IMG/VR virus record: IMGVR_UViG_3300020200_000129 | Coordinates: 1-29,319 of that record | Origin: a virus | DNA length: 29,319 bases | Direction: 5' to 3' (one strand) | Part shown: in pieces, positions 5,454 through 19,399 of the stretch | How positions within the stretch are numbered: the first letter of the stretch is position 1 | How the letters are laid out: the number at the start of each line of letters is the position of its first letter | The notes under the pieces: model-generated | Database searches by the model: none | Seen by the model: the letters and a program-made list of their open reading frames with translations, nothing else | Told to the model about the DNA's origin: nothing | Program-made: the position numbers and the translations under genes

Positions 5454-5987
5454 ATGAAGATACAAAAAACAGAGTTCAAAACAATCGTTAAAGAATGCCT
5501 TAAAGAGTTGGTTGCTGAAGGTGCATTAGATCATATGGTTGGTGGACTGCTTGCTGAACGTTCAAACGTTTTACAGCAACAAGCTGTTATGCAAGATCCA
5601 AGAATAAAGATGGCTGCTGCTGGCAATCCTGTTATGGAACAAATATTTGCTGACACAGCTGTTACTTCACTTCCAATGCAACAACAAGGTATTATGCCCA
5701 ATGGAATGACTCTTCCAGCTGGAATTAATCTTGCAATGCTTGGAGAAAATACAACACCTTCGTCTCCCTCTTTTGGTTATGTTCCACAAGGACGTAATCC
5801 TCTTCCCCCAAGAGATCCACAAGCCGTTGCTGCACTTCAACAACAATATTCACAACAACAGCAACAAAATCCTGCATCAACTTGGGCACGTTTAGCTTTT
5901 AACTCACCAATAAGCAATCGTCCCGGTGGTCCAAGAGGCACAAGTGAAGGTCATCTTCCCGGTGCTAAAAAAGGTAGTTTCGAATAA
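5454..5987 (+). CDS. Small head-region protein with capsid-targeting-like N-terminus
   Basis: A 177-residue protein. The first 23 residues form a basic amphipathic segment (MKIQKTEFKTIVKECLKE, then LVAEG) that recurs in other proteins of this window. The rest is rich in Gln, Pro and Met, with a Gln-rich stretch near 125-138 and two more conserved-looking blocks: NPVMEQIFADTA at about 58-69 and TWARLAFNSP near 142-151. Position next to the protease and before the scaffold suggests a prohead core or internal protein that gp21 cleaves (LVAE/G and LLAE/R are candidate sites). I recall related proteins in marine T4-like phages but cannot name a function. Confidence 0.75.
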   Translation: MKIQKTEFKTIVKECLKELVAEGALDHMVGGLLAERSNVLQQQAVMQDPRIKMAAAGNPVMEQIFADTAVTSLPMQQQGIMPNGMTLPAGINLAMLGENTTPSSPSFGYVPQGRNPLPPRDPQAVAALQQQYSQQQQQNPASTWARLAFNSPISNRPGGPRGTSEGHLPGAKKGSFE

Positions 5988-6021
5988 TCTCTTCTAAAAT
6001 ATAACTTGGTCTATAATTATT

Positions 6022-6044
6022 CTTGTAGAAACAACTACAAGGAG
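6022..6044 (+). promoter_or_regulatory. Hairpin overlapping the ribosome-binding site
   Basis: CTTGTAG (6022-6028) pairs perfectly with CTACAAG (6035-6041) around an AAACAA loop. The right arm contains the first bases of AAGGAG (6039-6044), the ribosome-binding site for the start at 6053. Folding would partly mask it. Whether this regulates translation is not known. Confidence 0.4.
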
Positions 6045-6052
6045 AATAGATC

Positions 6053-6682
6053 ATGCCAACAACAAGATACGAATCTACAGAAGCACCTACCGGAAGAAGA
6101 GTATACGGAGCAGGCACATTAGGCCAACGAGATTCTGCCGGTCTGGCTGCTGCATTCACACGCCCGCCGCTGCCGTCTGGAGTCTCTGACGCTCTGACCT
6201 ACGCAATACAAAATATGGAAAACATTGGTACCGGTACTGGTGAAGAGCCTAACCTAATGTTTCCACAATATCGTAGAAACTTTGTTCCGGCTGGAGGAAC
6301 CCTTACGCAAGAATATGTACTTGTCAGAGATAAAACCACTGTTACCCCCGCCGCCGGTACAGGTCTTGGAACAGCATACTCTCCAACTATTGCTTCTCCC
6401 GGTGAAGGCGAAGGCATAAACCCTGCCCGCCTTCGATTTGTTGCAGGTGCAGTAACAGCTGTATTGCTTGATGCAACAGACTCTAATGGTCCAAATCCAC
6501 TATATAACCCAACTAACGAAGCTCACAAAACCAGAAGCGATGCAGGATCAATTGATAATACTGGTGGAGTGCGTAGATTCAAGCTTGGTATTGCTTCATC
6601 AACACAAACAACGCTAACAGAAAATAATAACCGTGGTCAGTTCCCCGGTCAACCAATTGGTCCTACACCACCAACAACCTGA
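6053..6682 (+). CDS. Hypothetical head-module protein, 209 aa
   Basis: A 209-residue protein with a low-complexity composition rich in Thr, Gly, Pro and Asn, and no cysteine, signal peptide or membrane segment. The N-terminus (MPTTRYESTEAPTGRRVYG) and the Pro/Thr-rich C-terminal tail look disordered; a middle segment (AARLR-type strands near 120-140, with ARLRFVAGAVTAVLL) may fold. AAGGAG lies eight bases before the ATG. It lies between a probable core protein and the scaffold, so a minor structural or internal role is a reasonable guess from context alone. I do not recognise the family. Confidence 0.7.
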   Translation: MPTTRYESTEAPTGRRVYGAGTLGQRDSAGLAAAFTRPPLPSGVSDALTYAIQNMENIGTGTGEEPNLMFPQYRRNFVPAGGTLTQEYVLVRDKTTVTPAAGTGLGTAYSPTIASPGEGEGINPARLRFVAGAVTAVLLDATDSNGPNPLYNPTNEAHKTRSDAGSIDNTGGVRRFKLGIASSTQTTLTENNNRGQFPGQPIGPTPPTT

Positions 6683-6689
6683 TAAATGT

Positions 6690-6707
6690 GCAAAAACCGG
6701 TTTGTGC
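6690..6707. other. Short dyad between genes
   Basis: GCAAAAACC is followed directly by GGTTTGTGC, a near-perfect 9+9 inverted repeat with one mismatch and no loop, eight bases after the preceding stop. It has no T-run, so it is unlikely to be an intrinsic terminator. TATATATAAG follows at about 6709-6718. Confidence 0.25.
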
Positions 6708-6747
6708 GTATATATAAGATTAAGTAAGTTTTTAGGAGTTTAACGAT

Positions 6748-9027
6748 ATGTCAACACCCTTGTACCAAGAAGCACTTATTGAAGCAAAAAAGCTTCGTGA
6801 AGCAGCAGCATCAGAAGCAAAGAATGCAGTATTAGAAGCAGTTCAACCATTAATCAAACAAATGATTGATAAAGAAATCTCTGGGATTATCTTGGAACAA
6901 GAGGAACCACCTCCTGCACCCGAATCTTCTGCTGATGCACCTCCACCCGCTCCCCCAGTGCCATCACCAGATGCAGGATCAACAGGTCCAATTGACGCTG
7001 CTCCTGCAAGCGGTGCTGAAGTTAAGCCACCAATGCCGGGAATGACACCAGCAGTTTCTGCTGCTGCTCCACCTATTAAATCTCCCGGTACAGATGTTAT
7101 CGGCAAGATCGATCTTGGCCCAGCTGGAGAACAACAAATCGTTATTCCTGTGGATGCTCTTTTCCAAAAAGAAACAACACCAGCATCAACAGGAACCGTA
7201 GAAACACCAACGGAAACAACTCCTGCTCCCGAAGCGGCACCTGCCCCAGAAGCATCTCCAGCTGTCCCAGCACCAGAAGCAGAAACAATGCCCCCACCAG
7301 ATTCTCTTACAGAGATTTATCGTGCGGTACAAAAACTGTTGAGTGAACAAGCTGCTCCACCAGCTGCTCCTGCGGCTCCTATGCCACCAGCAGACCCAGC
7401 AGCTGCCGCAGCACCTCCCGCTGCTCCTATGCCACCAGCAGACCCAGCAGCTGCCGCAGCACCTCCCGCTGCTCCAACTCCTGCTGCACCCGCTGCAACT
7501 CCACCAGCAGCGCCTCCAGCCCCAGATGCCGCAGCTGCAACTCCACCAGCCGGTGATTTAAATGCTGCCGCTGGTGCTGCTCCTGCTGCTCCTGCTGCTC
7601 CTGCTGCTCCTGCTGCACCAACTCCTCCTGCAATGCCAGTAGCTGCTGATGCACCTCCACCAGCACCAACAGGCGCAGCAGCCCCACCTGTAACACCAGC
7701 TCCAGTAGCTGCGGGTACTCCCCAAACTGTTGCAGAATATAAGAACTTTAAAACAAGTTTAGACCGTACAGAAGGTTTGGTTGAAGCACTACGTAGCAAG
7801 ACTAGTGAAAATGTAACGTTTCTAAAAGAAGCGTATGAAAAACAACTTTTTTCACTATACAACAACTTGCTTGGTTTAAAGGCAAAAAATGCAATATCCC
7901 CTAGACTATTTTCTTTCAATGAAGACAGATTGGGATTGCTATACGAAAATCTAAACGTAATCACTAGTTATAAGCAAAATCCACTAGCAAAGGGTAATAA
8001 AATGGCAAACAAGAATTCATTGAAAGATTTAGTTCGTGCGCTTTTTGAAGGCGCAGAAGGTTTTGAAGACGCAGTAGGCAAGGTTGATCCTGCTGGTGAT
8101 TCAGAAGGCGGTTCAGCAGAACACGCTCACAAAGTTTCAGGTAACCCAAAGGGTGTTAAAGCAGAAGCAGAATCTGCTCCATTCCCAACCAAACAAAAGA
8201 AAGAATGGCCCGGTAAACCATCACCAGAATCTCTTCTTGAACAACTAGAAGAAGAAATTGGTGAGCTCATGGCAGAAATGGGTTCAGAAGAAGGTATGCA
8301 AGAAGAAGCAGAAGATGAAATTGTTCTTGAGCTAGCTGATGAAGAAGTAATGATGGAAGCCCGCAAGGCCCGTACTCGTCTCAAAGCTCTTCGTGAACAA
8401 GCCGAAGACAAACTTTCACTCACCATCGATCTAGATGGTGTTTCTGGTGAAAATGTCCAAAACGTCAACGTCTCACTTGATGGTGAAGAACTTGAAGTTG
8501 AAATGGACGAAGAAGGTTCAGAAGAAGATTCAGAAGATATGGAAATGTCTGGTGAAGAAGAAGACTCAGAAGATATGGAAATGTCTGGTGAAGAAGAAGA
8601 CTCAGAAGATATGGAAATGTCTGGTGAAGAAGAAGATTCAGAAGGCTCAGAAGAAGCTCTTATGGAATCACGCAAACTTGTTCGCAAGGCTGTGAATGAA
8701 ACCAAGACTCTTCGTGGTCAACTTCATGAAACTCAACTTCTCACCGCACGCTCATTGTATGTTAACAAGCTTTTCGTGAGGGACGAATTGACCGGGACAC
8801 AAAAACGCAAAATCGTTGAGTATCTCGACAGTGCCAACACAATTGCAGAAGCAAAAGAAATCTATAACCGTATTGTTCGTGTACTAAACGCTGGAAAGAA
8901 AAACGGTGCAATGATTAAAGAATCTGCACAACGTCCAGCTCGTATGCTAACAGAAGGATTTGTAGAGCCAAGCTTCGATACTTCTCGCTGGCAAATCCTT
9001 GCTGGCATGAAGAGAAACGCAAAGTAA
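6748..9027 (+). CDS. Prohead scaffold/core protein, long Pro/Ala-rich form (gp22-like position)
   Basis: Predicted internal scaffold of the prohead, lying directly between the protease and capsid genes as gene 22 does in T4. At 759 residues it is far longer than T4 gp22 (269). Parts in order: an N-terminal coiled coil (about 1-50, EALIEAKKLREAAASEAK); a disordered Pro/Ala region (about 50-330) with tandem repeats; a helical domain (about 330-415); a second half starting at Met419 with a basic amphipathic helix (SLKDLVRALFEGAE); acidic helices with three DMEMSGEEEDSE repeats at 597-632; and a helical C-terminus. Leu-x-Glu sites that gp21 could cut are frequent. AGGAG precedes the start. Met419 may start a second product. 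Confidence 0.8.
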   Translation: MSTPLYQEALIEAKKLREAAASEAKNAVLEAVQPLIKQMIDKEISGIILEQEEPPPAPESSADAPPPAPPVPSPDAGSTGPIDAAPASGAEVKPPMPGMTPAVSAAAPPIKSPGTDVIGKIDLGPAGEQQIVIPVDALFQKETTPASTGTVETPTETTPAPEAAPAPEASPAVPAPEAETMPPPDSLTEIYRAVQKLLSEQAAPPAAPAAPMPPADPAAAAAPPAAPMPPADPAAAAAPPAAPTPAAPAATPPAAPPAPDAAAATPPAGDLNAAAGAAPAAPAAPAAPAAPTPPAMPVAADAPPPAPTGAAAPPVTPAPVAAGTPQTVAEYKNFKTSLDRTEGLVEALRSKTSENVTFLKEAYEKQLFSLYNNLLGLKAKNAISPRLFSFNEDRLGLLYENLNVITSYKQNPLAKGNKMANKNSLKDLVRALFEGAEGFEDAVGKVDPAGDSEGGSAEHAHKVSGNPKGVKAEAESAPFPTKQKKEWPGKPSPESLLEQLEEEIGELMAEMGSEEGMQEEAEDEIVLELADEEVMMEARKARTRLKALREQAEDKLSLTIDLDGVSGENVQNVNVSLDGEELEVEMDEEGSEEDSEDMEMSGEEEDSEDMEMSGEEEDSEDMEMSGEEEDSEGSEEALMESRKLVRKAVNETKTLRGQLHETQLLTARSLYVNKLFVRDELTGTQKRKIVEYLDSANTIAEAKEIYNRIVRVLNAGKKNGAMIKESAQRPARMLTEGFVEPSFDTSRWQILAGMKRNAK
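7375..7470 (+). repeat. Two 48-bp tandem repeats in the scaffold gene
   Basis: Two identical 48-base units at 7375-7422 and 7423-7470 each encode a 16-residue Pro/Ala block (core PMPPADPAAAAAPPA). The repeat is in frame and identical at the nucleotide level, which points to a recent duplication or active copy-number change. Confidence 0.85.
7576..7620 (+). repeat. 9-bp tandem repeats encoding Ala-Ala-Pro
   Basis: Four perfect GCTGCTCCT units at 7576-7611 and a fifth diverged unit (GCTGCACCA) to 7620, in frame, encode an Ala-Ala-Pro run. This is simple-sequence expansion within the disordered linker of the scaffold. Confidence 0.85.
8002..9027 (+). other. Possible second scaffold product from an internal start
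   Basis: Met419 of the scaffold frame (ATG at 8002-8004) has AAAGGG seven bases upstream (7989-7994), a better-placed ribosome-binding site than several genes here have. Translation from it would give a 341-residue protein starting MANKNSLKDLVRALFEGAE, which looks like a natural N-terminus and resembles the putative capsid-targeting segments of other proteins. The long and short forms would share the acidic repeats and helical C-terminus. Nested in-frame scaffold genes are known in other phages (lambda Nu3 within C). This is an inference. Confidence 0.4.
8536..8643 (+). repeat. Three 36-bp tandem repeats, acidic
   Basis: Three 36-base units starting at 8536, 8572 and 8608 each encode DMEMSGEEEDSE. 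The first two are identical and the third differs by one C-to-T change in a serine/aspartate-rich codon stretch. They lengthen the negatively charged part of the scaffold. Confidence 0.9.
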
Positions 9028-9091
9028 GTGCATAGTTAGAGATAAGTTACCATTTAGGTACTAGAAAAACAACGAATAAGGAGATATTCAA

Positions 9092-11050
9092 ATGTCAAAA
9101 ACACTAACCCTATCACAACTCGCTGAAGGTGTTCAACGCACAGCAGCAACCGCAGGCGATGAACGCATTGTCGGTAAATGGTCACGCACAGGTCTTCTAG
9201 AAGGTCTTTCAGCAGCAGGCAAGCAAAAAATGGCTCGCCTTCTTGAAAACCAAGCTGTAGAAGTTCTCAGGGGTGGCTCTTCAATGCTAAACGAAAGCCT
9301 TTCACTTTCAACAGGTGGTGCATCACTCACAACATCTAATCAAGTGGCTGGTTTCACCAACGTAGCATTCCCAATCGTTCGCCGTGTATTCGCTGGCCTC
9401 GTTGCCAACGAAATCGTAAGCGTTCAACCAATGAGCCTTCCATCAGGTCTACTCTTCTACTTAGACTACACCTACGGCTCATACGTCGGTGGTGACGCTG
9501 GTACAAGCGGTAACCAATATGCAGTTGGTTCTGATCCCGGTGCTGCAACATATGCTCGTGGCCAATCAATATACACCAACCCATCAGGTTCAGTAATCCG
9601 CACAAGCGGTTCACTAGCTGCTGGTGGTCAATACAACCTCATTGGCTCAGGTTATTCAAAGGTTCACGTACAAGGTCAACTCGCAACAGGCGTAGTTGCT
9701 CTTGGTGCATGGACCGGTGGAACAGCATGGCTCACAGGATCTTCAGTGTCAGCATCAGCAGGTTTCGTTGGTTACAACGCACGCTTCGCTGACTACGATC
9801 CAACACTTTCAACAGACGTTGAAAACAGCGTGCTCGACTACACCTTCCTAGTTGTTTCAGCTTCACAACTCACAACAGCAATTAATGGTGCAGATCTAAC
9901 CTCAATTGAACAAATCGCAGTTACAGGTCTTGGTGCTTCTGGTTCAGCATTCACAGCACCACCACAAACTTACCAACAAGGCGAAGCAGTTCTCAACTTC
10001 CGTCGCTTCACCAAGCGTGGTAACTGGACCGATTCTGGCACAAGCTCAACATTTACACCAGATCCATTCAATGGTTCACACCTTCTCTTCGTAATGGGTC
10101 TTTCAAACACACAAACCGTTGGTTCAGTCGTGCTCGGTAGCGCAAACACACTTGTAACAGCTTCAGCACCTATCGCTGACAAACTCTCAATAGACTCAAC
10201 AAACGGTTCAGCTCTCACAATCCCAAGCTTTGAATCAAACTTCGCAGTTGATTCAAGCCCACGTATTCCAGACGTAGACATCAAGATTGATTCAGTTGCA
10301 GTAACAGCAACAACCCGTAAGCTCCGTGCTCGCTGGTCACCAGAAATGGCTCAAGACCTCACAGCATTCTACTCAATGGACGTAGAAGCAGAGCTCACAA
10401 ACATTCTCTCAGAGATGATCACTCTCGATATCGACCGTGAAATCCTTAACGACCTACTCACACAAGCTCAAGCAGCTAACTACTTCTGGAGCCGTGCCCC
10501 CGGTCGCTTCGTTAACAAGTACACAGGTACCGAAGTTGCTCGTACCAGTACCGTTTACCCCGGACCACAATTCACAGGCAATGTCCGTGAATGGTACGAA
10601 ACACTTATCGAAACCATCACAGACGCAGCCAACGTCATCCACAAGAAGACTCTTCGTGGCTCAGGTAACTTCATCGTGTGCTCACCAGAAGTGGGTACCA
10701 TTCTTGAAGCAACAGTTGCTTACCGTGCCAACTACAAGATCGACGGCGACGGCCAAGTTCGTGACAACATGAGCATTGGTGCAGAAGCTGTAGGTACAGT
10801 AAACGGTCGCTACTCAGTGTTCGTTGACCCATACTTCCCAGTAAACAAGATCCTTATCGGTCTTAAGGGTTCAACCTTCCTTGAAAGCGGTTATATCTAC
10901 GCTCCATACGTACCACTCATCCTTACCCCCGTAATCTACGGACAAGAAGACTTCACTCCACGTAAGGGCATCATGACCCGCTACGGTAAGAAAATGGTAC
11001 GTGCAGACTTCTACGCAACCGTGACATGCTTGGACATGAGCGTAATTTGA
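9092..11050 (+). CDS. 23: Major capsid protein (gp23-like)
   Basis: Main hexamer subunit of the head shell, 652 residues (T4 gp23 is 521). The C-terminal third is diagnostic: WSPEMAQDLTAFYSMDVEAE, then ILSEMITLDIDREI, GSGNFIVCSPEV, and near the end YAPYVPLILTPVIYG followed by FTPRKGIMTRYGKKMV. The N-terminal 60 residues hold Leu-x-Glu sites (LLEGL, LLENQ) where gp21 would be expected to remove a delta peptide, as in T4. A Ser/Thr/Gly-rich insertion around 140-330 explains the extra length. AAGGAGATATT precedes the ATG and a strong terminator follows the stop. Codons are visibly richer in C-ending forms than those of the neighbouring genes, as expected for very high expression. Confidence 0.96.
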   Translation: MSKTLTLSQLAEGVQRTAATAGDERIVGKWSRTGLLEGLSAAGKQKMARLLENQAVEVLRGGSSMLNESLSLSTGGASLTTSNQVAGFTNVAFPIVRRVFAGLVANEIVSVQPMSLPSGLLFYLDYTYGSYVGGDAGTSGNQYAVGSDPGAATYARGQSIYTNPSGSVIRTSGSLAAGGQYNLIGSGYSKVHVQGQLATGVVALGAWTGGTAWLTGSSVSASAGFVGYNARFADYDPTLSTDVENSVLDYTFLVVSASQLTTAINGADLTSIEQIAVTGLGASGSAFTAPPQTYQQGEAVLNFRRFTKRGNWTDSGTSSTFTPDPFNGSHLLFVMGLSNTQTVGSVVLGSANTLVTASAPIADKLSIDSTNGSALTIPSFESNFAVDSSPRIPDVDIKIDSVAVTATTRKLRARWSPEMAQDLTAFYSMDVEAELTNILSEMITLDIDREILNDLLTQAQAANYFWSRAPGRFVNKYTGTEVARTSTVYPGPQFTGNVREWYETLIETITDAANVIHKKTLRGSGNFIVCSPEVGTILEATVAYRANYKIDGDGQVRDNMSIGAEAVGTVNGRYSVFVDPYFPVNKILIGLKGSTFLESGYIYAPYVPLILTPVIYGQEDFTPRKGIMTRYGKKMVRADFYATVTCLDMSVI

Positions 11051-11057
11051 TTTGCCT

Positions 11058-11065
11058 TATAAATA
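11058..11065 (+). promoter_or_regulatory. TATAAATA, identical to the T4 late promoter core
   Basis: TATAAATA lies eight bases after the capsid stop and just before the capsid terminator. It is the exact T4 late promoter sequence, but a transcript starting here on the + strand would meet the terminator at once. Read on the minus strand it is the CTATTTATA-type box seen upstream of other genes, so it could drive antisense RNA. It may also be chance. Confidence 0.25.
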
Positions 11066-11077
11066 GGTAGTTCAAAG

Positions 11078-11105
11078 GAAAGGCAGGCTGAAAAGCCTGC
11101 CTTTT
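11078..11105 (+). terminator. Intrinsic terminator of the capsid gene
   Basis: AAAGGCAGGC at about 11079-11088 pairs with GCCTGCCTTT (11095-11104) around a TGAAAA loop and ends in a T-run. It is a ten-pair, GC-rich stem placed 28 bases after the capsid stop, and would isolate the capsid transcript from the endonuclease gene that follows. Confidence 0.85.
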
Positions 11106-11165
11106 CGCATTTATACACTCTAAGAGAAATATAAACCCATATCCAAAAATGCCTTTGTGTGTTAG

Positions 11166-11187
11166 TATATATCAAGAGGTATATATG
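11166..11187 (+). promoter_or_regulatory. Weak hairpin with the ribosome-binding site in its loop
   Basis: TATATA (11166-11171) can pair with TATATA (11180-11185), leaving AAGAGG in the eight-base loop and the A of the ATG in the stem. Six A-U pairs make a weak structure. It matters mainly because the other two endonuclease genes also have hairpins over their starts. Confidence 0.3.
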
Positions 11188-12081
11188 AAGTTTGTGTTTT
11201 TTGATAAAGGCAACGAAGGCGGGATTTATAAAATCATTAATATCGATAACGGCAGGATTTATATTGGATCAACCAGTAGATTCAAGACAAGAGCTTACAG
11301 TCATTCGAATAATTTAAAAGCAAACAGGCATCTAAACAAGTTCATGCAAAGCGACTTCAACAAAACAGGGGCAGATTCGTTTTTGTTTGAAGTTTTGGAA
11401 GTTGTGGTGGGGGACAAACAAGAAAGATTGGATCGTGAACAGTTTTATATTGATCAGTGGTATGACAACCAAAAAAACTGTTATAACTTGGCCAAAGAAG
11501 CTAAAGATACCCGTGGTGGAACTCGCAACAAAAAACAAATCGACCACACAACAGATGGTCGCTGTAAACCTTTTACAGAAGAACGTCTTGCTCAACATTC
11601 AGCTAAACTGAAAGAAACATGGCAAGACCCAGTATTAAAAGAATCTTCCAGACAAAACGCTATAAAACAGTGGAGTAAACATTCTGCAAACATAACTGTA
11701 ACCAATAAAACTACAGGTGAGAAAGTTGTTATAGACGGTTCTATTAGGCAGTTTTGTTTGGACAAAGGATTGAGCTATAAAGCTTTTCATCAGCTTGTAA
11801 AAGGCAAGATAAAGAGTTCTGGAGGGTGGTTTATAGGAGAAACAGAGCCAGAGTATATTAGTCAAAAAGGTCAAGTTAGAAAGCCTTTAAGTAAAGAGCA
11901 CAGGGAAAAGATAGCTGGTGGAAGATACATGGGCATAAAACTTGTTAACGAACAAGGTGCAGAGATTATTTTGGGTAACAATATCAAGCAACAATGTCGT
12001 GAGTTAGGTTTATGTTACTCTACACTTCTTAAAGTATTGAATGGTATATGTTATTCGGTTTCGGGTTATACTAGAGACTAA
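11185..12081 (+). CDS. GIY-YIG homing endonuclease (Seg-like), first copy
   Basis: Free-standing homing endonuclease of 298 residues. The GIY-YIG nuclease domain occupies about 12-105: GIYKI (13-17), GRIYIGS (23-29), Arg36, His40, and the likely metal-binding Glu85. The C-terminal half carries two similar helix-turn-helix-like modules (IRQFCLDKGLSYKAF and IKQQCRELGLCYSTL) of the kind that bind DNA in NUMOD-type endonucleases. I start it at 11185 because AAGAGG lies just upstream; a 12-residue extension to 11149 is possible but has no such site and reads unlike the family. It lies between two strong terminators as a self-contained insert. Its nuclease domain is close to that of the copy at 18063. 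Confidence 0.9.
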   Translation: MKFVFFDKGNEGGIYKIINIDNGRIYIGSTSRFKTRAYSHSNNLKANRHLNKFMQSDFNKTGADSFLFEVLEVVVGDKQERLDREQFYIDQWYDNQKNCYNLAKEAKDTRGGTRNKKQIDHTTDGRCKPFTEERLAQHSAKLKETWQDPVLKESSRQNAIKQWSKHSANITVTNKTTGEKVVIDGSIRQFCLDKGLSYKAFHQLVKGKIKSSGGWFIGETEPEYISQKGQVRKPLSKEHREKIAGGRYMGIKLVNEQGAEIILGNNIKQQCRELGLCYSTLLKVLNGICYSVSGYTRD

Positions 12082-12088
12082 GTAAAAG

Positions 12089-12124: not shown

Positions 12125-12127
12125 GTA

Positions 12128-12134: not shown

Positions 12135-12135
12135 C

Positions 12136-12156
12136 ATCTTGGAGATATACCAAGAT
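12136..12156 (+). promoter_or_regulatory. Hairpin masking the HNH ribosome-binding site and start codon
   Basis: ATCTTGG (12136-12142) is a perfect complement of CCAAGAT (12150-12156) around an AGATATA loop. The left arm holds the first two bases of GGAG and the right arm holds the A and T of the start codon at 12155. Folding would block translation initiation. Confidence 0.5.
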
Positions 12157-12514
12157 GCTTACACGCCTTTATAAAGCCATTAAGGAAGCCGTTAAAGGTA
12201 AACCACTAAAGCTACGTTCACCTCGTTGGGATGACGTACGTAAAATCCATTTAAAATCGTTTCCAGCTTGTGCGGCTTGTGGTTCAGAAACGAATTTACA
12301 AGTTCATCATATAAAGCCGTTTCATTTATATCCAGAGCTTGAGCTTGACGAAGAAAATCTTATAACGTTATGTGAAACAAAAGCTCACAAGTGTCATTTT
12401 AAGATTGGTCATTTAAATAACTGGAGGAGGGAGAATCCAAATGTTGCAGAAGATGCTGTAGAATATAGCACTAAAAATCAGAATGCCTTGGAGAACATCC
12501 CCAAGGCACCCTAA
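12155..12514 (+). CDS. HNH endonuclease
   Basis: A 119-residue HNH nuclease. The basic N-terminus (about 1-30) is followed by CAAC (Cys39, Cys42), VHHIKPFHLYPEL (His51, His52), EENLITLC with the HNH asparagine at 68, and a second metal-binding set CHFKIGH (Cys80, His81, His86). This is a compact zinc-stabilised HNH fold of the kind found in T4-like free-standing homing endonucleases and in packaging-associated nucleases. No separate DNA-binding domain is seen. Its position within a cluster of endonuclease genes favours a mobile homing role, though a role in head or packaging functions is possible. Confidence 0.88.
   Translation: MLTRLYKAIKEAVKGKPLKLRSPRWDDVRKIHLKSFPACAACGSETNLQVHHIKPFHLYPELELDEENLITLCETKAHKCHFKIGHLNNWRRENPNVAEDAVEYSTKNQNALENIPKAP
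12485..12507 (-). terminator. Possible terminator hairpin for the minus-strand 108-aa gene
   Basis: GCCTTGG (12485-12491) and CCAAGGC (12501-12507) form a seven-pair stem at the end of the HNH gene. On the minus strand it lies 34 bases after the 12541 stop and is followed by ATTCTGATTTTT. On the + strand no T-run follows. Support is weak. Confidence 0.3.
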
Positions 12515-12540
12515 AGGTAATTAGTTGTTATTGAGAAAGA

Positions 12541-12867
12541 TTATTTCTTTTTGCTGACTGATTTTGTTACTTGTTCAGTTGTTGATGAGGTTTCTGTTGT
12601 TGTGCTTACTTCGACGGGTTTAGGTGATTCAGGTTTTTCTTCCTTGATTGTTTCCAGTGCCTTAGCTAGTTGGTTAACGGAAGAGTGCATACATTGTTCT
12701 TGCAGACGAGAAACTGTTTCTTGCAAAGAAACAACCTTGCCTTCAAGTTCGCAAAGTTTTTCAAGAATAGCTTCACTGTTTAAGCCTTCGATGCTCAAGT
12801 CACCTTTAATGCAGATTGATTGTTTGCCACCGGCACCTGCATATGTACCATTTAATACTGCTTTCAT
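12541..12867 (-). CDS. Small coiled-coil protein, 108 aa
   Basis: Minus-strand gene with a good ribosome-binding site (AAAGGAG) ahead of the ATG at 867. Residues 1-28 include a Gly-rich start (MKAVLNGTYAGAGGKQSICI). Residues about 30-75 form a heptad-like helix (ILEKLCELEGKVVSLQETVSRL). The tail is Pro/Ser/Thr-rich and disordered, ending in SKKK. It sits convergent with the HNH gene and divergent from the fusion enzyme. I do not recognise it; an oligomeric accessory protein is the most that can be said. Confidence 0.7.
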   Translation of the reverse strand: MKAVLNGTYAGAGGKQSICIKGDLSIEGLNSEAILEKLCELEGKVVSLQETVSRLQEQCMHSSVNQLAKALETIKEEKPESPKPVEVSTTTETSSTTEQVTKSVSKKK

Positions 12868-12895
12868 TTCATTTCACTCCTTTTGGTGTTAAGTA

Positions 12896-12916
12896 TTGAT
12901 TATATATATATATCAA
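12896..12916. promoter_or_regulatory. AT-rich dyad in a divergent intergenic region
   Basis: TTGAT (12896-12900) and ATCAA (12912-12916) flank an alternating TATATATATAT core between two divergent genes. It could be an operator or a bidirectional promoter element, or simple sequence. No stronger evidence is visible. Confidence 0.25.
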
Positions 12917-12962
12917 GCCAGAATCATTGTTCAAAGCGATTGCTCAAGTTAGCTTAATCGAA

Positions 12963-12969
12963 CTATTTA
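12963..12969 (+). promoter_or_regulatory. CTATTTA box upstream of the fusion enzyme
   Basis: Exact CTATTTA 24 bases before the ATG at 12987. Its presence inside the open frame that extends to 12927 supports 12987 as the true start. Confidence 0.45.
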
Positions 12970-12986
12970 GAAAACAGGAGTGTTGT

Positions 12987-15740
12987 ATGGTGTTAAATGA
13001 GGGTGGCAATATTTTTAAGGACAAGAAAACAGGAGAAGTTTTCACACAAAGAATCAACAGGGATGATGTTGAGCCAACTCTTCGTTGGTTGGAAGGCAAT
13101 CTTGGTCTTGACCTTGTTAGTAACACTCTTGGAACCACGGGAAGAAAAGCAACAAGTGGTGACCTTGATATTGCAGTGGATGAAAGCTCAATATCAAAAG
13201 AAGAATTGATATCAAAGTTGTTGGGTATTGAGGGAACTACAAAAGACGACGTTAAAAAAGGTGGCATCAACGTACACTTTAAAACACCAATCAAGGGAGA
13301 TAGTAGCAATGGATTTGTTCAAACAGACTTTATGTTTGGCAGTCCAGAGTGGTTAAAGTTTTCAATGCAAGGTGGTGTTGAACATTCTGAGTATTCTGGC
13401 AAACACAAACACGTTTTACTTGCAAGCATTGCGAAAGCAACAAAAACACCAGAATACCCAGAAGGTCTTAAGTGGTCACACACAGAAGGACTTGTTGATC
13501 GAGCATCAAACGATTCAATATCAAAGAATCCAGAGGAAGTCGCAAGTATTCTTTTAGGTAAAGGATTTAAAGGTTCTGATCTTTCAAACGTTGAAAGTAT
13601 TGTAAATGCAATAAAAAATCGGAATAATTTTGATGAACTTGTTAGCAATGCAAATCAAACTTTTGCAACCAACAAATCTTTTGCTGCACCACCCATAACA
13701 AAACTATTAAAAGAAGCTTTAGAAACAAGAATACAACATCCAGAAGACATGATTTACTGGGAAGGTTCTGTAGGTGCTCAGAAGGCTGTAAACGGCTTAT
13801 TAGAGCTTGCGGAGAACGCAACCAGCACAACTACTATCAAATGGGATGGATCGCCTGCAATCGTGTTTGGAGTGGATAAGGAAGGTAAATTTATTCTAAC
13901 GGACAAAGGTGGATTTAGCGTTAAGAGTTACAAGGGAAGAACAGAATCTCCAGATGAACTTGAAAGTATGATTAAAGCTCGTGGAGAAAAAGCTGACAAA
14001 GATTATTCACAATTTGCTTTGGATATGAGAAACATATTTGTTCCATTCAAACAAGCACTTAAAAAAATCAACAAGCAACCCGATGAAGGAGTATTCTTTA
14101 AAGGTGATTTGCTTTATATGAGCAAACCAAAGATTGTTGGAAACGAGTTTGAGTTTAAGCCAAACGTTGTCACATACAAAGTTCCTGTTAAAACAGAGCT
14201 AGGTGACAAGATAAAACAAAGTAATGTTGGAATTGTTCTTCATGGAATCATGAGAGAGGATTCAAGCGGTAATGTTGTGGAAGAGTCTCTTGAAGAATTA
14301 ACAAGCTACTTTAATGGCAGTTTGTCTTCTGGTGGTTTGCTTGCTGGAACAGTGTTAATCTTTTCTCCAGTGTTTGTTAATGAAACTCCAAAGTTTGAAA
14401 TGGATATGGTTAAGCTTGCAGAAAAACTTCAATCAAAAGTTGAAGCTAGCACAGCAAAAATTGATTCAATATTTCAAGAACAAGTTTTAACAGCAAAAAA
14501 GATTAAAGATTTACCGGAAGTTCTTTACTCTTATGCAAATGCATCAGCAGGAAATTTTTCTTCAGTTTCTGTTGATGATTTTTCTAACTGGGCTAGCAGC
14601 AATCCAAAACTGTCAAAACAAAAAGTTAGCAACTTACTGGCTTATGTGAGTGAAAAATCAAGTAACTTCAAAGCACTGTTTGAGATTGTTAAAAGTATTG
14701 AAACATTGAAAAACAAAATTGTGTCACAGTTTGACCAGCAAAACACAGCTGTTAAATCTTTTATTGGAGATACTGCTGGTGGTGAAGGTTATGTTGCTAA
14801 AAGTTCTCATGGACTTTTCAAACTAGTCAGAAGAGGCGGTGGGTTTTCGGTAGCTCATGCTAAACAATATGTAAAAGAAGAAACAGTGAAAGAAAAACTA
14901 AAAATTGGATATTATCCGGGGTCTTTTAAGCCTTTTCATCGTGGACATTATGAAAGTATTTTGGCTACAAGAGAACTTGTTGATGAATTGAATGTTATTG
15001 CATCAGCAAGTGATAGAGTTCGTCCAAACGAGTTTCCATTAAGCGGTCAAGCATCAAAAGTGTATCTTGAAAAATACATCAAGCCAGCATTAGAAGCTCA
15101 AGGTATCAACCTTATTGTTTCTTCTGGTTCCCCAGTAACAGACGTTTATAAGTTAATAGAAGAGCAAACAAACAGCAACGCTTATGTTTACTTGTTTGCT
15201 GGACCAGATGATTTAGATAGATTTAGACCAGAAACCATAAAAAGAACCTTTCCAGAATTATCTGAAAAGGGAAGAATAAAGGTTGAACCAACAACTGTTA
15301 TTATGGGTGGTGACGGCGGAGAGCGTATTTCTGGAACAGCTGCAAGACAGGCTTTAGAGAACGATGATTTTGGTGGTTTCAAAGCAATGCTTCCAAATGT
15401 TCCTGCTATTCAAAAAGACGCAAAAAAGATTATGGACATGTTTAAGCAAGCTGGTGAAAAACTTGCTGAAGAGCAAGCGGCAAAAGAAGCGGCTAAGAAA
15501 ACAAAATCAGTTAAGAAAACTGCAAAAGAGTCTGTACTATATGAATGCATCATGTTGTTGTTAAAAGAGCATTTTATTTCGGAGAAGAAAAAGCGTAAGG
15601 GCAAAATTCATTTTCCACCTGAAATAGAAAAGATTATCAAAAAAGAACTTAAGCCACGTTATGGTGACAATGATGCTGCGATATACGGCACAGCAACAAA
15701 AATCATGAAAGTAATGAGTTTACAGAAAGTTTCGAAATAG
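12987..15740 (+). CDS. Three-module nucleotidyl-transfer enzyme (NTase + ligase-like + HxGH nucleotidylyltransferase)
   Basis: A 917-residue protein with three predicted catalytic modules. First (about 5-180), a polymerase-beta-type nucleotidyltransferase: TGRKATSGDLDIAVD (Asp59, Asp61) with a third acid in VQTDFMF (Asp114). Second (about 245-620), a covalent nucleotidyltransferase of the ligase/capping type, as in DUF6267 proteins: motif I IKWDGSPA with Lys285, then FFKGDLLY (370-377), EGYVAK (600-605) and FKLVRR. Third (about 636-800), a cytidylyltransferase/NadM-like domain: GYYPGSFKPFHRGH (HxGH at 651-654) and ISGTAAR (781-787). A Lys/Ala-rich linker and a basic helical tail (KIHFPPEIEKII) follow. 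CAGGAG sets the start at 12987. Catalytic residues look intact; substrates are unknown. Confidence 0.85.
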   Translation: MVLNEGGNIFKDKKTGEVFTQRINRDDVEPTLRWLEGNLGLDLVSNTLGTTGRKATSGDLDIAVDESSISKEELISKLLGIEGTTKDDVKKGGINVHFKTPIKGDSSNGFVQTDFMFGSPEWLKFSMQGGVEHSEYSGKHKHVLLASIAKATKTPEYPEGLKWSHTEGLVDRASNDSISKNPEEVASILLGKGFKGSDLSNVESIVNAIKNRNNFDELVSNANQTFATNKSFAAPPITKLLKEALETRIQHPEDMIYWEGSVGAQKAVNGLLELAENATSTTTIKWDGSPAIVFGVDKEGKFILTDKGGFSVKSYKGRTESPDELESMIKARGEKADKDYSQFALDMRNIFVPFKQALKKINKQPDEGVFFKGDLLYMSKPKIVGNEFEFKPNVVTYKVPVKTELGDKIKQSNVGIVLHGIMREDSSGNVVEESLEELTSYFNGSLSSGGLLAGTVLIFSPVFVNETPKFEMDMVKLAEKLQSKVEASTAKIDSIFQEQVLTAKKIKDLPEVLYSYANASAGNFSSVSVDDFSNWASSNPKLSKQKVSNLLAYVSEKSSNFKALFEIVKSIETLKNKIVSQFDQQNTAVKSFIGDTAGGEGYVAKSSHGLFKLVRRGGGFSVAHAKQYVKEETVKEKLKIGYYPGSFKPFHRGHYESILATRELVDELNVIASASDRVRPNEFPLSGQASKVYLEKYIKPALEAQGINLIVSSGSPVTDVYKLIEEQTNSNAYVYLFAGPDDLDRFRPETIKRTFPELSEKGRIKVEPTTVIMGGDGGERISGTAARQALENDDFGGFKAMLPNVPAIQKDAKKIMDMFKQAGEKLAEEQAAKEAAKKTKSVKKTAKESVLYECIMLLLKEHFISEKKKRKGKIHFPPEIEKIIKKELKPRYGDNDAAIYGTATKIMKVMSLQKVSK

Positions 15741-15786
15741 TATATTACTTATAGGCATGGCTAATGTTGCCGAAGGAGAATGTATA

Positions 15787-15969
15787 ATGAAGGTTACAGT
15801 AAAACAACTCAAGGCATTGATTCGTGAAGCTGCTGAAGAAGCAATGGACGAAATGAAGCAAGAAGATGTAGGTGTGGATGACATGGAAGAAGCTGCTCTT
15901 CATGAAGCCGTTACCAAGGCATTTCGTGCAGGTTATCAACGTGGTGTTAGAGCAGGTCGTAGACGCTGA
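15787..15969 (+). CDS. Small basic protein with capsid-targeting-like N-terminus, 60 aa
   Basis: The first half is MKVTVKQLKALIREAAEE, a close match to the N-terminal segments of the products at 5454, 19103 and 16681. An acidic middle (DVGVDDMEEAA) follows, then a helix ending in an arginine-rich tail (GYQRGVRAGRRR). I start it at 15787 because GAAGGAG lies nine bases upstream; an extension to 15757 lacks a ribosome-binding site. It follows the fusion enzyme by 46 bases and is closed by a strong terminator. A small DNA-binding internal head protein, like T4 IP proteins, would fit. Function is inferred. Confidence 0.65.
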   Translation: MKVTVKQLKALIREAAEEAMDEMKQEDVGVDDMEEAALHEAVTKAFRAGYQRGVRAGRRR

Positions 15970-15990
15970 TCAAATAACGTGGTCGATAAG

Positions 15991-16026
15991 CAAAGGGCTT
16001 GCATTATGCAAGCCCTTTGTGTTTTT
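15991..16026 (+). terminator. Strong intrinsic terminator
   Basis: CAAAGGGCTTGCA (15991-16003) pairs perfectly with TGCAAGCCCTTTG (16007-16019) around TTA, then TGTTTTTA. It closes the transcript of the fusion enzyme and the 60-residue protein, and ends just before the convergent HAD gene's stop. Confidence 0.85.
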
Positions 16027-16027
16027 A

Positions 16028-16681
16028 TCAAGGTGCTTTGATTATTCTGGAGCGAACTCTTAGATTGGTACCAAACTTTGATTTAAGATCTAGATCGTTG
16101 TTTAAGTTTACAACAGCTTCGACGTTTAAAGGGCTGTCATCAAAGAACTCGATATGAGGAATATTATGAGACAACATCGTATCCTTTATCCAGTTGCTTT
16201 TAAGTTCTGGTACTGATTTTTCAAGTGTTATAACAGGAATATCGATATCAAATGACCGTAAGAAGTTGGCAATGTTTTTATTTGCATTATGACCTCTTGC
16301 TGTTAGAATAACAGCTGGAGATGAGGAATCTTCTCTTAGTTTTCTTACAACATTGCGAAGTATATCAAATGTAAAGTCAATAATTTTTGGATTGATAACT
16401 TCCTCGAACTCACGATAATCGTACTTGTATTCTTTTTCTGGGTGTTTGCTAGCAACGTTTGTTTTAAACACGGCATACTCTGCCGGAGTGATTGGGTACT
16501 CCTCTTCAAGTTGTTTTCCAGAATCTTTATCGAACTCTGTTACCCAAACTCTTGAGTTTGTTTTTGCTAAAGTATCATCAAAATCGAACACACGTAACGT
16601 TCTCATTCCAGTGCGTGTTGACACAACCCCAAGTTCTTCAAAGATTATCGATTTGATAATATATTTTAACTCTTGTTTCAT
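16028..16681 (-). CDS. HAD-superfamily phosphatase with N-terminal targeting-like segment
   Basis: A 217-residue HAD hydrolase. Motif I is RVFDFDDTLAK with Asp33 and Asp35 (nucleophile and general acid); VILTARG (124-130) fits motif II; Lys residues in the ELKSNW segment (159-164) could supply motif III; FFDDSPLNV (Asp181, Asp182) is motif IV. This set resembles polynucleotide 3'-phosphatase and 5'-nucleotidase-type HAD enzymes, but the substrate cannot be read from sequence. The HAD domain begins near residue 27, preceded by MKQELKYIIKSIIFEELG, which resembles the N-termini of other small proteins here. It is read against its neighbours and divergent from the neck gene. The ribosome-binding site is weak. 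Confidence 0.85.
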   Translation of the reverse strand: MKQELKYIIKSIIFEELGVVSTRTGMRTLRVFDFDDTLAKTNSRVWVTEFDKDSGKQLEEEYPITPAEYAVFKTNVASKHPEKEYKYDYREFEEVINPKIIDFTFDILRNVVRKLREDSSSPAVILTARGHNANKNIANFLRSFDIDIPVITLEKSVPELKSNWIKDTMLSHNIPHIEFFDDSPLNVEAVVNLNNDLDLKSKFGTNLRVRSRIIKAP

Positions 16682-16744
16682 GATCTTATCTTCTTGTCAC
16701 CAACGTTACAACTTCTTTGAGTGATGTTAGATGTTGCCATAATA

Positions 16745-16751
16745 CTTATTT
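16745..16751 (+). promoter_or_regulatory. CTTATTT box 13 bases before a start codon
   Basis: CTTATTT, a variant of the CTATTTA box, starts 13 bases before the ATG at 16758, and no ribosome-binding site is visible. If it is a -10-type element, the transcript would be leaderless or nearly so. Confidence 0.3.
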
Positions 16752-16757
16752 GTTATA

Positions 16758-18014
16758 ATGTCAACTTTTTTAACGACACTTCATCCAACTTCTTTTGGTT
16801 TCTATGATAAATATCAGTTGTTTCAGCAAGACGCTGACAATATGGTTACCTTTGTTCTTAGATTTCTTGGTGAAGACGTTTTATCTGTTGAACTAACCAA
16901 ACGTCAAATCTGGGATAACTTCGAGCAAGCTACCCGTGAGTTTAATGGCAAAATGATTGAATACCAAAACGTATCCAATCTTTCTAATCTACTTGGCTCT
17001 CCAACAGGCAGCATCGATGCCAACGGCAATCCTTCTATTAATGTTACAGATATGTACGTGCAACCAAACTTGGAGTATCTACTAACTCTAGCTGCACCAT
17101 ACGCAGGCGTTGTTGGTTATGCTCAAGACGAACAAACATATCTTGGTTATATCACAATGGTTAATACCAAACAAGAGTATGACCTTTATACAGATCTTGT
17201 TGACGAAGATGGTACTCCAGTATGGAACTTGCAACCAAGTGGTTCTGTGGGAAGTATGCAAGTTGTTGAAGTATTTCACAATGCACCCGTTCAATATGTG
17301 TTTAACTCAAACCTTGCTTCGAATTTTGTTGCAACAGGTCTTCCTGTCGAATCATATATTCCAGACACACGCTTTTATGTTCTTCCATTGTTTGAAGATG
17401 TGTTAAGAGCTGGAATGTTGGAAGCTGCTCAAAGAGTTCGTCGTTCACATTATAGCTACAAGATTTCTGGCCGTAGTATAAGAATATATCCAACACCAAA
17501 CAGTCTTGTTCCCGGTTATAACAACCGTGTTTGGATTCGTGTTAGATTTACAAGACAACCTTTTCCAACTCTAGCAAACACTATTGTTAACAGTGGCTCC
17601 GCTTATTCTCCTGTTGGTTCTGGTTCTGCTGGAGCATATGAACAAGATAAAATCTATGGTGTTAACGGTCCATTTACCGCTCCCTTTGGTCCATTAAACT
17701 ATAACAGCTTGAATATGTGGTGCAGAAACTGGATTGCTCAAATGACTTTAGCTCTTTGTACCATCCAGCTTGGACGTATCAGAAGCAAGTTTAAGAGTAT
17801 GCCCATTCCCGGTGCTGATCTTACTCTTAACGGTGAGGATTTAGTTACTAGCGGCAAAGAAGACAAAGAAAAACTTATGACTTCTCTTAAGGAAACTTTG
17901 GACAACTTAACTTATGACAAGATTGCAGAACGTGAAGCAGCCAAAGCAGAAAACGCTGTAAAACAACTAGCGTTTATTCCAATGCCTCCTAAATACGCAA
18001 TTTTTACAAGTTGA
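16758..18014 (+). CDS. Neck / head-tail connector protein (gp13-like position)
   Basis: A 418-residue virion protein of a family found in T4-like marine phages at the head-tail connector locus. Recognisable parts are the start (LHPTSFGFYDKYQLF), the helix VELTKRQIWDNFEQATREF, TRFYVLPLFEDVLRAGMLE, a strand-rich block RVRRSHYSYKISGRSIRIYP, and the C-terminal PIPGADLTLNGEDLVTSGKE followed by a charged helix. It is longer than T4 gp13 (309), and the gp13 label comes from position and my recollection of the family, not from residue-level identity. The start fits the family, though there is no ribosome-binding site. Expected to join the portal to the tail. Confidence 0.75.
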   Translation: MSTFLTTLHPTSFGFYDKYQLFQQDADNMVTFVLRFLGEDVLSVELTKRQIWDNFEQATREFNGKMIEYQNVSNLSNLLGSPTGSIDANGNPSINVTDMYVQPNLEYLLTLAAPYAGVVGYAQDEQTYLGYITMVNTKQEYDLYTDLVDEDGTPVWNLQPSGSVGSMQVVEVFHNAPVQYVFNSNLASNFVATGLPVESYIPDTRFYVLPLFEDVLRAGMLEAAQRVRRSHYSYKISGRSIRIYPTPNSLVPGYNNRVWIRVRFTRQPFPTLANTIVNSGSAYSPVGSGSAGAYEQDKIYGVNGPFTAPFGPLNYNSLNMWCRNWIAQMTLALCTIQLGRIRSKFKSMPIPGADLTLNGEDLVTSGKEDKEKLMTSLKETLDNLTYDKIAEREAAKAENAVKQLAFIPMPPKYAIFTS

Positions 18015-18016
18015 CT

Positions 18017-18038
18017 TGTAAAACGTTACCTCCTTACT
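18017..18038 (+). repeat. 22-bp direct repeat, left copy
   Basis: TGTAAAACGTTACCTCC followed by TTACT, identical to 19029-19050. It lies just after the neck protein stop and overlaps the hairpin ahead of the GIY-YIG gene. With the right copy it brackets the endonuclease gene. Confidence 0.9.
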
Positions 18039-18060
18039 ATATACTATTAGGAGAGGTAAC
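18025..18060 (+). promoter_or_regulatory. Hairpin sequestering the GIY-YIG ribosome-binding site
   Basis: GTTACCTC (18025-18032) pairs with GAGGTAAC (18053-18060), eight perfect pairs, and the ribosome-binding site AGGAGAGGT (18049-18057) lies largely in the right arm. The loop holds CTATATACTA at 18037-18046, 26 bases before the start codon, the same spacing as other candidate promoter boxes. A transcript starting within the loop would lack the left arm and leave the site open. Confidence 0.6.
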
Positions 18061-18062
18061 AT

Positions 18063-19028
18063 ATGGAATACAAATACGATGGCCATTCACTTAAATCTGG
18101 AATCTATAAAATCACAAACAAGATAAATGGTAGGATTTATATTGGTTCTGCGAAACTTTTCAAGGTTCGTTGGAGTCAACATTCATCATCTCTTCGTAGT
18201 CAAAAACACAATAATAAGTTTCTTCAAGCTGATTTTAACAAGTGCGGAGAAGAAGCTTTTGTGTTTGAAGTTATTGAGGTTACAGAAGGTAAGAGTAAAG
18301 AAGAACGTTTGCTGATTGAAGAAGGCTATATCAAGCAGCATTACGATTCCGGTGATATGTGTTATAATCTTTGCAGCAAAGCTATCTCACGGGAAGGCTA
18401 TCCAAGCAAAAACCCAGAAGAAACAAAACGCAAGATATCTGCGGCCACAAAAAAGAGGTGGCAAGACCCAGAGAAAGCAGCAAGTATACGCAACTCTATA
18501 AAGAGTGCGCTATCAGACCCAGAGACAGCCAAGCGTCATCAAGAGGGTCGCATTCGTTCATGGGAAAACAATGAAGAACGACGTGCCGCTGCTTCGCAAC
18601 GTATGTCTGAGCGCATGACAAACAGTACCACAGAAACAGAAAAGATTATAGAAGCCTTAAAGGTATCTCAACCCAAAGGAAGAGACACTTTTAGGAAACG
18701 AATGAAAGAAGATACAAAGCTTCGACAAACTTATGTTGATATCGCAAAAAAGAAAGCTGAGAATCTAAACGAGAGATACAAGAATGATGCTGAGTATAAA
18801 GCGATGATGGATAAAAAGTCTATAGAGAACATCAAAGCATATAACGAAAAACAAGCACAAAGTATACCAGTCAAAGCTCCTTTGATATCACCAGATGGAA
18901 GAGTTTATTCAGATATTCGTAGTTTGAATGCGTTTGCCAAAGAGCATGGTTTAGATTCAAGTTCTCTTTACAAGCTTTATTCTGGTAAGTTAACCGAAGT
19001 AAAAGGTTGGAAGCTATTTATAGAATAG
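18063..19028 (+). CDS. GIY-YIG homing endonuclease, second copy
   Basis: Free-standing homing endonuclease of 321 residues. The nuclease domain spans about 12-105: GIYKI (13-17), GRIYIGS (23-29), Arg36, His40 and a likely catalytic Glu in LIEEGYI (86 or 87). It is very similar to the copy at 11185 over this domain. The linker is long, charged and helical, with short modules such as RWQDPEKAASIRNSI that fit NUMOD3-type DNA-binding repeats. A C-terminal helix-turn-helix-like unit (IRSLNAFAKEHGLDSSSLY) follows. A strong but hairpin-masked ribosome-binding site precedes the ATG. The gene is bracketed by a 22-bp direct repeat, which marks it as a recent insertion between neck-region genes. Confidence 0.9.
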   Translation: MEYKYDGHSLKSGIYKITNKINGRIYIGSAKLFKVRWSQHSSSLRSQKHNNKFLQADFNKCGEEAFVFEVIEVTEGKSKEERLLIEEGYIKQHYDSGDMCYNLCSKAISREGYPSKNPEETKRKISAATKKRWQDPEKAASIRNSIKSALSDPETAKRHQEGRIRSWENNEERRAAASQRMSERMTNSTTETEKIIEALKVSQPKGRDTFRKRMKEDTKLRQTYVDIAKKKAENLNERYKNDAEYKAMMDKKSIENIKAYNEKQAQSIPVKAPLISPDGRVYSDIRSLNAFAKEHGLDSSSLYKLYSGKLTEVKGWKLFIE

Positions 19029-19050
19029 TGTAAAACGTTACCTCCTTACT
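19029..19050 (+). repeat. 22-bp direct repeat, right copy
   Basis: Identical to 18017-18038 and beginning directly after the endonuclease stop codon. The 1012-base spacing between the copies corresponds to the endonuclease gene plus its leader. Confidence 0.9.
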
Positions 19051-19076
19051 TGTGTGCGAATTAAACCACAAACAAG

Positions 19077-19083
19077 CTATTTA
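19077..19083 (+). promoter_or_regulatory. CTATTTA box upstream of the 98-aa gene
   Basis: Exact CTATTTA 26 bases before the GTG start at 19103. A further CTATTTATAG lies at 19014-19023, within the end of the endonuclease gene. Confidence 0.4.
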
Positions 19084-19102
19084 AAGCAAAGGATAAGATG
19101 TT

Positions 19103-19399
19103 GTGAAAAAAGTATTAAGAGAATCACTTAAAACCATTATCAAACAAGTTTTGACAGAGATGAATTTGCAAGCAATGTTAAGTTTTGCTGGTTTTGATGA
19201 AAAAGTTAAAACACGAATGCTTAATGATATTGAAAACTTACGTGTCACAGACCCAGATGAATACAAAAAGCGTCAAGCTGAAATAAAGAAAGATGTTGCA
19301 ACCATTCTGCTTGATCTTATGAGTAAAGAAAGTTCACCATCTGGAGAGATTCGCCCAGCTGCTCGTACACCAGCGCAAAGACGTGCAATCGGAAATTAA
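19103..19399 (+). CDS. Small protein with capsid-targeting-like N-terminus, 98 aa
   Basis: A GTG-started gene of 98 residues; the nearby ATG at 19098 runs into a stop after two codons, and AAAGG lies about ten bases before the GTG. It begins MKKVLRESLKTIIKQVLTEM, a match to the N-termini at 5454, 15787 and 16681. LTE/M would suit gp21 cleavage. A helical middle (DEYKKRQAEIKKDVATIL) and a short Pro/Arg-rich tail (RPAARTPAQRR) follow. I do not know its function. A small packaged or core protein would fit both the N-terminus and the setting within virion genes. Confidence 0.7.
   Translation: MKKVLRESLKTIIKQVLTEMNLQAMLSFAGFDEKVKTRMLNDIENLRVTDPDEYKKRQAEIKKDVATILLDLMSKESSPSGEIRPAARTPAQRRAIGN

Follow-up and report, generated by a model that had tools for sequence, protein, structure and literature searches.

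The window analysed here is the whole of IMG/VR virus record IMGVR_UViG_3300020200_000129 (29,319 nucleotides). It encodes several otherwise unrelated proteins that begin with a similar short sequence, here called tag A, which a sequence-only reading had proposed to be a capsid-targeting tag. According to Pfam and PHROG profile matches, the window carries a T4-type head module with genes for portal, gp21 protease, scaffold and gp23. As the analysed record is a 29-kb viral fragment alone, genome-wide context was taken from relatives. The features discussed below are the following.

4767..5396, plus strand: gp21 prohead protease (Peptidase_S77; PF03420, E=3.3e-26; phrog_207)
5454..5507, plus strand: tag of ORF 5454-5987, MKIQKTEFKTIVKECLKE, then LVAE/G as a second cleavage-like site (matrix score 15.8)
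5454..5987, plus strand: 177-aa candidate prohead core protein immediately 3' of gp21 (47-protein cluster, same place in relatives)
6748..9027, plus strand: gp22-like scaffold (homologues in relatives are one ORF)
9092..11050, plus strand: gp23 major capsid protein (PF07068, E=1.4e-77)
9287..9295, plus strand: predicted gp23 propeptide cleavage site L66-N67-E68 / S69 (E68 invariant in 83 relatives)
15787..15840, plus strand: tag of the 60-aa ORF, MKVTVKQLKALIREAAEE (matrix score 25.3; AAGGAG upstream of 15787)
15787..15969, plus strand: 60-aa tagged protein (ORF)
16028..16681, minus strand: HAD-family hydrolase resembling the phosphatase half of polynucleotide kinase (phrog_415, E=1.5e-4)
16628..16681, minus strand: HAD protein's diverged tag, MKQELKYIIKSIIFEELG (matrix score -4.2 for the gene itself, as high as 16.1 among orthologues)
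19103..19159, plus strand: tag of ORF 19103-19399, MKKVLRESLKTIIKQVLTE, with the end LTE/M (matrix score 16.8)
19103..19399, plus strand: 98-aa tagged protein (ORF)
19470..20369, plus strand: protein without tag A, start MTTIATQLATKLVNETPS (body matches a protein of relative G036, E=3.8e-10)

Tags were scored with a position matrix trained on the relatives, using a threshold of 9.6-11. Among shuffled N-termini, a score of 15.8 was reached in 2e-5 of cases and 16.8 never. All ORFs named in the sequence-only reading are present as described, and the likeness that it saw between five N-termini is clear for those at 5454, 15787 and 19103 and recognisable in diverged form on the HAD protein, but does not extend to the fifth, an internal start at 8002. 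The family of the 5454 protein is tagged in 36 relatives, with an LxE at the fixed offset 6 that is followed by G in 31 of them; the window protein itself had no match in Pfam or PHROG. For the 60-aa protein, 15787 is a better start than position 15757 of the longer ORF, since the AAGGAG lies nine bases 5' of it; no homologue of this protein was found among the sampled relatives. The low score of the HAD gene is due to fewer residues ahead of the core Leu. Its orthologues score 16.1 (close), 11.8 (distant), 8.4 and 0.7 (MNKATYNALKRLIVEELRDLG and others), which indicates that the gene is a diverged member of the tagged group. Of its homologues, some have tag A, some tag C and some no tag at all. 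The AlphaFold2 model of the HAD protein places residues 2-17 in a helix (pLDDT <50) separate from the better-predicted folded body, and in a fold comparison the similarity to HAD proteins was only weak (E=1.8e-3 at best, TM ~0.34). The start at 8002, codon 419 of the scaffold gene, was rejected as a tag on account of its score (-7.3) and the undivided scaffold ORF of the relatives; the LFE/G in this region is a possible cleavage site of the scaffold. The description of tagged proteins as small and basic does not hold in general, as the mean net charge of the tagged bodies is -2.5 per 100 aa; that of the tag itself is +2.2.

The relatives were gathered through gp23, which yielded at least ~600 stretches, from which 80 loci were kept, several of them at or near the full contig. 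After gene calling, the proteins were clustered by their bodies, with the first 30 residues removed. Any gapped four-residue pattern in the first 25 residues was then considered without a seed, each body cluster being counted once, and this discovery was restricted to contigs reached through gp23 and named relatives. In ~80 related T4-like contigs, it placed a single motif on top, with L..II.E in 30 clusters compared to 1.6 after shuffling; other top patterns were T...L..II, LR..I...I and T...L...I.E. The refined matrix has the consensus M-K-[IL]-T-x-x-Q-L-R-K-I-I-[RK]-E-E-[IV], which defines tag A. An alignment of 56 unrelated tagged proteins gave the consensus MKITxxxLRxIIxEE, with nearly nothing conserved beyond it. 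In a set enlarged by more contigs, 303 of 4430 genes (6.8%) were tagged, an overall rate that is not an unbiased census, since part of the contigs were found by the tag pattern itself. As in a capsid-targeting sequence, a short N-terminus is common to unrelated bodies, namely 303 proteins of 180 body families. Tag-level scores occurred at 22 of 14,185 internal Met positions and in one of 906 genes of random viral contigs. The sharing noticed by the sequence-only reading is thus beyond chance, and its extent exceeds what had been claimed. The highest count was found in G036 (27/341 genes), next to 21/154 in G009 and 19/66 in a 50-kb piece of LR756508. Tagged genes often stand in tandem arrays, and many are far from the head genes. 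The same discovery also returned a second shared N-terminus, K-x-G-D-L-V, in ~41 clusters of untagged proteins; it resembles the start of a small domain more than a tag and was set aside.

The tag is linked to T4-type head genes. The strict DNA pattern of tag A was present in 31 viral stretches and in none of 257 Gb of bacterial and archaeal genomes, and 13 of the 31 matching contigs carry gp21 and/or gp23. G020 and G028, two long tag-A contigs without these genes, encode a T4-like portal, and G028 stops just short of the place of gp21. S77 proteases were detected in 18 of 19 relatives selected by gp23. They were absent from 50 random viral contigs of 15-79 kb, but present in six of the 14 tag-A contigs within these size limits. 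The co-occurrence of gp21 and gp23 in the same phage, as expected for a capsid-targeting sequence, holds for the window (4767-5396, 9092-11050) as well as for relatives. Furthermore, 66 of 320 genes in the gp21-gp23 interval are tagged versus 65 of 2138 outside, an excess that stems mostly from two orthologous families, so that its nominal significance is too high.

A cleavage-like site was observed at the end of the tag. After the core Glu, [LI]-x-E was enriched solely at offsets 2, 5, 6 and 11 (z over shuffles 12.8, 6.7, 15.7 and 5.3, respectively), and it occurred within 2-12 residues after the core in 50 of 91 families, with 13.6 expected. At offset 6, xE followed 17 of 28 L/I, whereas after K/R at that place it occurred ~3 times; helix periodicity alone is therefore insufficient to explain the LxE signal. 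In half of the tags with an [LI]-x-E, the residue that follows it is A, G or S. The gp23 propeptides of relatives, which played no part in finding the tag and thus serve as an independent comparison, contain an invariant Glu, and all 72 parsed sites are [LI]xE, with K/R at P2 in 64 and S or A at P1' in 57. The end of the tag hence carries the same [LI]-x-E consensus as gp23, a further gp21 substrate of these phages.

Related phages use further tag types. Tag B (M-x-L-L-R-E-Y-I-R-E-L-L-x-E) was first encountered on homologues of tag-A cargos. Its strict pattern was present in 29 viral stretches, with up to four matches per stretch, and in five stretches of metagenome-assembled genomes; one of these five equals a viral record in length and so probably represents that very contig. 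All ten tag-B viral records of >110 kb contain both gp23 and S77. In families 15, 72 and 113 and in the HAD family, members with tag A have counterparts in another phage that bear tag B or W-x-[RK]-[FY]-[LI]-x-E. The family of ORF 19470..20369 has tag A in G009 and tag B in G036, and in family 104 tag A is replaced by a different sequence ending in [LI]xE. Among 46 homologues without tag A, 19 showed an N-terminal hydrophobic-[LI]-x-E, some of them being diverged tag A and not other types, the background rate being 260 of 2082 clusters (p=1.4e-6); when an internal window of the tag-A-less homologues was taken as a control, it held the pattern in 2 of 45. Tag A is one of several lineage-specific types. 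In the phage isolate collection no isolate showed a strong match to tag A or B, the sole match being the uncultured LR756508. The cultured Flavobacterium phage immuto (host LMO8) encodes two tag-A proteins and has its own type, MENFDLKKFLVENKLT, on four proteins, and so a testable model phage exists; the paper on Baltic Sea Flavobacterium phages (PMC7077304) contains no virion mass spectrometry and does not mention immuto. In immuto (L148/L149/L102; 1803, 103806, 117631, 118632), four otherwise different proteins start with MENFDLKKFLVENKLTxNSxLLxE. In G004 (L082-L091; 16094, 117561, 118869, 192684, 195751), five starts are very short, e.g. MKIKPLIFESN and MKLFNFLFESN, a plan close to the T4 sequence MKTYQEFIAE.

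With regard to the proteins that bear the tag, a profile scan hitting mainly DNA metabolism would speak against capsid targeting. Among 574 homologues of replication, nucleotide, chaperone, portal, shell, tail and sugar proteins, one was tagged (borderline, score 11.3) where 39 were expected. The tag is thus practically absent from proteins acting outside the head, as in a capsid-targeting sequence, and the scan did not refute the proposal. Two weakly tagged DNA proteins, G020 124402 (11.3) and LR756508 piece 23722 (14.3), were taken as false positives at the threshold. Identified cargos are few among the tagged families. They comprise an Acb1-like anti-CBASS protein with tag B (3.9e-9), a NUDIX protein (5.3e-18), an RNase_T exonuclease, a weakly matching 2H phosphoesterase, two phage lysozymes, a LysM protein and the HAD/PNK-phosphatase-like protein. 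The genes of the two largest tagged families lie between gp21 and the scaffold gene. Two tag-B proteins (L260:10278-10967 and L242:1-600) have R, STS and EKE-like motifs that hint at ADP-ribosyltransferases, which would be a parallel to T4 Alt; this reading of some tag-B cargos found no confirmation, the AlphaFold2 model of L260:10278-10967 having a pLDDT of 34 and the protein no Pfam hit.

Taken together, these sequence comparisons make it quite likely that the shared N-terminus is a capsid-targeting propeptide working like that of the T4 internal proteins. The proposal of the sequence-only reading gains support from the many tagged genes between gp21 and gp23, from the co-occurrence with gp21 and gp23 and from the [LI]xE consensus common to tag and gp23, but the tag is not the T4 sequence. 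On >150 otherwise unrelated proteins it probably marks cargo that is loaded into the head and carried into the next bacterium. We infer that tagged proteins bind the core, are cleaved, and are packaged and injected. The amphipathic helix formed by the tag would bind the scaffold core during prohead assembly and draw the attached protein inside. The gp21-type S77 protease of the same genome would then cut after the [LI]-x-E at or just past the helix and free the cargo within the head. Part of the cargo would consist of core proteins whose genes lie between gp21 and gp22. Many of the remaining cargos probably act as effectors that enter the host together with the DNA, such as the Acb1-like anti-CBASS, NUDIX, HAD phosphatase and 2H phosphoesterase proteins, and related phages would put other tag types, all ending in hydrophobic-[LI]-x-E, on the same cargos.

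Several points weigh against this interpretation. Some gp21-bearing relatives have few or no tags (MelJY01 0, the part of RM378 0, G004 1, G007 1), which indicates that the system can do without tag A. Roughly one in two tagged families has no [LI]xE 2-12 residues past the core, although the core I-I-[RK]-E itself contains an I-x-E, and in the small head-operon family 0 the downstream site is mostly missing. Part of the LxE signal may also be inflated by the periodic L and E of amphipathic helices. Compared to the targeting sequence of T4 IPI, IPII and IPIII, tag A is longer and of different sequence (~16-22 residues with a Q-L-R-K-I-I-R-E-E core), and the literature searched contained no virion proteome of a close tag-bearing relative.

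A wider view, to which we give even chances, is that large T4-like phages of uncultured bacteria possess a general virion-cargo address system. It would consist of a few exchangeable tags (QLRKIIREE, LLREYIRELLxE, WRKFLxE and, in Flavobacterium phage immuto, FDLKKFLVENKLT), each recognised by the scaffold and gp21 of the phage that uses it. Per genome, dozens of enzymes and of proteins against host defence would be loaded in advance and then injected, and the sequence would suffice to list the whole cargo.

Three alternatives concern what the tagged proteins do or why they look alike, and a fourth the level at which the constraint acts. The tag might be a true prohead-core address, but one borne mostly by morphogenesis factors or parts of the scaffold, which would be degraded and leave the head, and not by effectors for injection. 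This narrower form of the capsid-targeting interpretation shares the targeting step with it and draws on the two largest tagged families, whose genes lie between those for gp21 and the scaffold, in a position like that of T4 gp67/gp68 near gp21. We consider it unlikely as an account of most cargos, given enzymes without an obvious assembly role (Acb1-like, NUDIX, HAD, RNase_T exonuclease) and up to 27 tagged genes in a single genome. Less probable still, and rather doubtful, is that the helix docks onto some other partner from phage or host (polymerase, membrane or takeover complex), in which case cargos would be gathered during infection and neither packaged nor cleaved. An amphipathic helix known from sequence alone fits any docking role, and the distance of many tagged genes from the head genes would suit it; against it stand the fixed spacing of LxE followed by A/G/S, as at the gp23 site, the concentration of tagged genes in the gp21-gp23 interval and the exchange with other helices that retain [LI]xE. 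Convergence, in which helical N-termini of low complexity and high K, I, L and E content resemble each other without sharing a function, would be in keeping with the simple, helix-forming composition, yet almost no such N-termini arose in composition-preserving shuffles, internal Met controls or random viral contigs, so that it is refuted at the sequence level and hardly credible. A DNA-level element (promoter, operator or recombination site) across the start codon that imposes similar first codons, to which the tandem arrays of tagged genes might point, is rejected as extremely improbable, since all six Leu, six Arg, three Ile and both Glu codons are in use at the conserved positions, where I/L/V and K/R interchange, and the constraint thus acts on the protein.

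Other genes of the window were noted alongside. The portal gene (539-3832) contains a large in-frame insertion that separates its two portal-matching parts, an intein-like element with an endonuclease-like stretch (phrog_4645, residues 441-552). The ORFs at 11149-12081 and 18063-19028 are paralogues that resemble GIY-YIG homing endonucleases and share one body cluster, and an HNH-like ORF lies at 12155-12514; these GIY-YIG-like and HNH-like ORFs stand directly after gp23 and after a neck-like gene. At 12927-15740, a 917-937 aa protein is encoded in which DUF6267 (PF19782) is fused to a cytidylyltransferase-like domain (PF01467).

If the capsid-targeting interpretation is true, genome sequences would suffice to list the proteins packaged by a large group of uncultured T4-like phages. 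Prediction of injected phage proteins is difficult, as the bodies evolve fast and mostly have no known relatives; in T-even phages, many injected or internal proteins were found through the signal sequence (PMC12373910). More than 150 mostly unknown families would become candidates for host takeover or counter-defence, with the Acb1-like cargo as an example, and new tags for loading proteins into phage heads would be at hand. The tag sequence strings were not found in the literature searched, nor was an earlier description of the tag, which does not prove that none exists.

Among known systems, the closest is the targeting sequence of T4 IPI, IPII and IPIII (PMC9026906), likewise a short N-terminal propeptide common to otherwise unrelated proteins, with hydrophobic targeting positions, an [IL]-x-E for gp21, and S77 and gp23 in the same genome. 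T4 gp21 cleaves after [LI]-x-E-type motifs, and of the residues of the IPIII tag, 4 and 7 function in targeting and 8 and 10 in processing (PMC9026906). Compared by eye, T4 MKTYQEFIAE and tag A share the general plan of MK, hydrophobic spacing and [IL]xE. In contrast to T4, a single genome can have tag A on as many as 27 proteins, a far larger number; there are several tag types among related phages, and the processing of tag A is a prediction only. T4 Alt (PMC5694885) is similarly packaged, and gp21 trims the ends of this enzyme at ITE and LTE; its N-terminal propeptide, however, has just six residues and is accompanied by a C-terminal one, while the present survey covered N-termini. In phiKZ-like giant phages (PMC5694885, PMC9026906), head proteins are also cut after x-E by a gp21-related protease, and the paralogues gp53 and gp54 of the phiKZ-like SPN3US have identical N-termini. 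In contrast to the system described here, the phiKZ-like protease belongs to family S80 and its sites have S/A at P3 instead of L/I, and shared N-termini occur on paralogues only. The concept of capsid targeting is therefore already known; new are a different and longer tag on many more proteins, the correspondence of this tag to the gp23 site and the way in which related phages swap one tag type for another.

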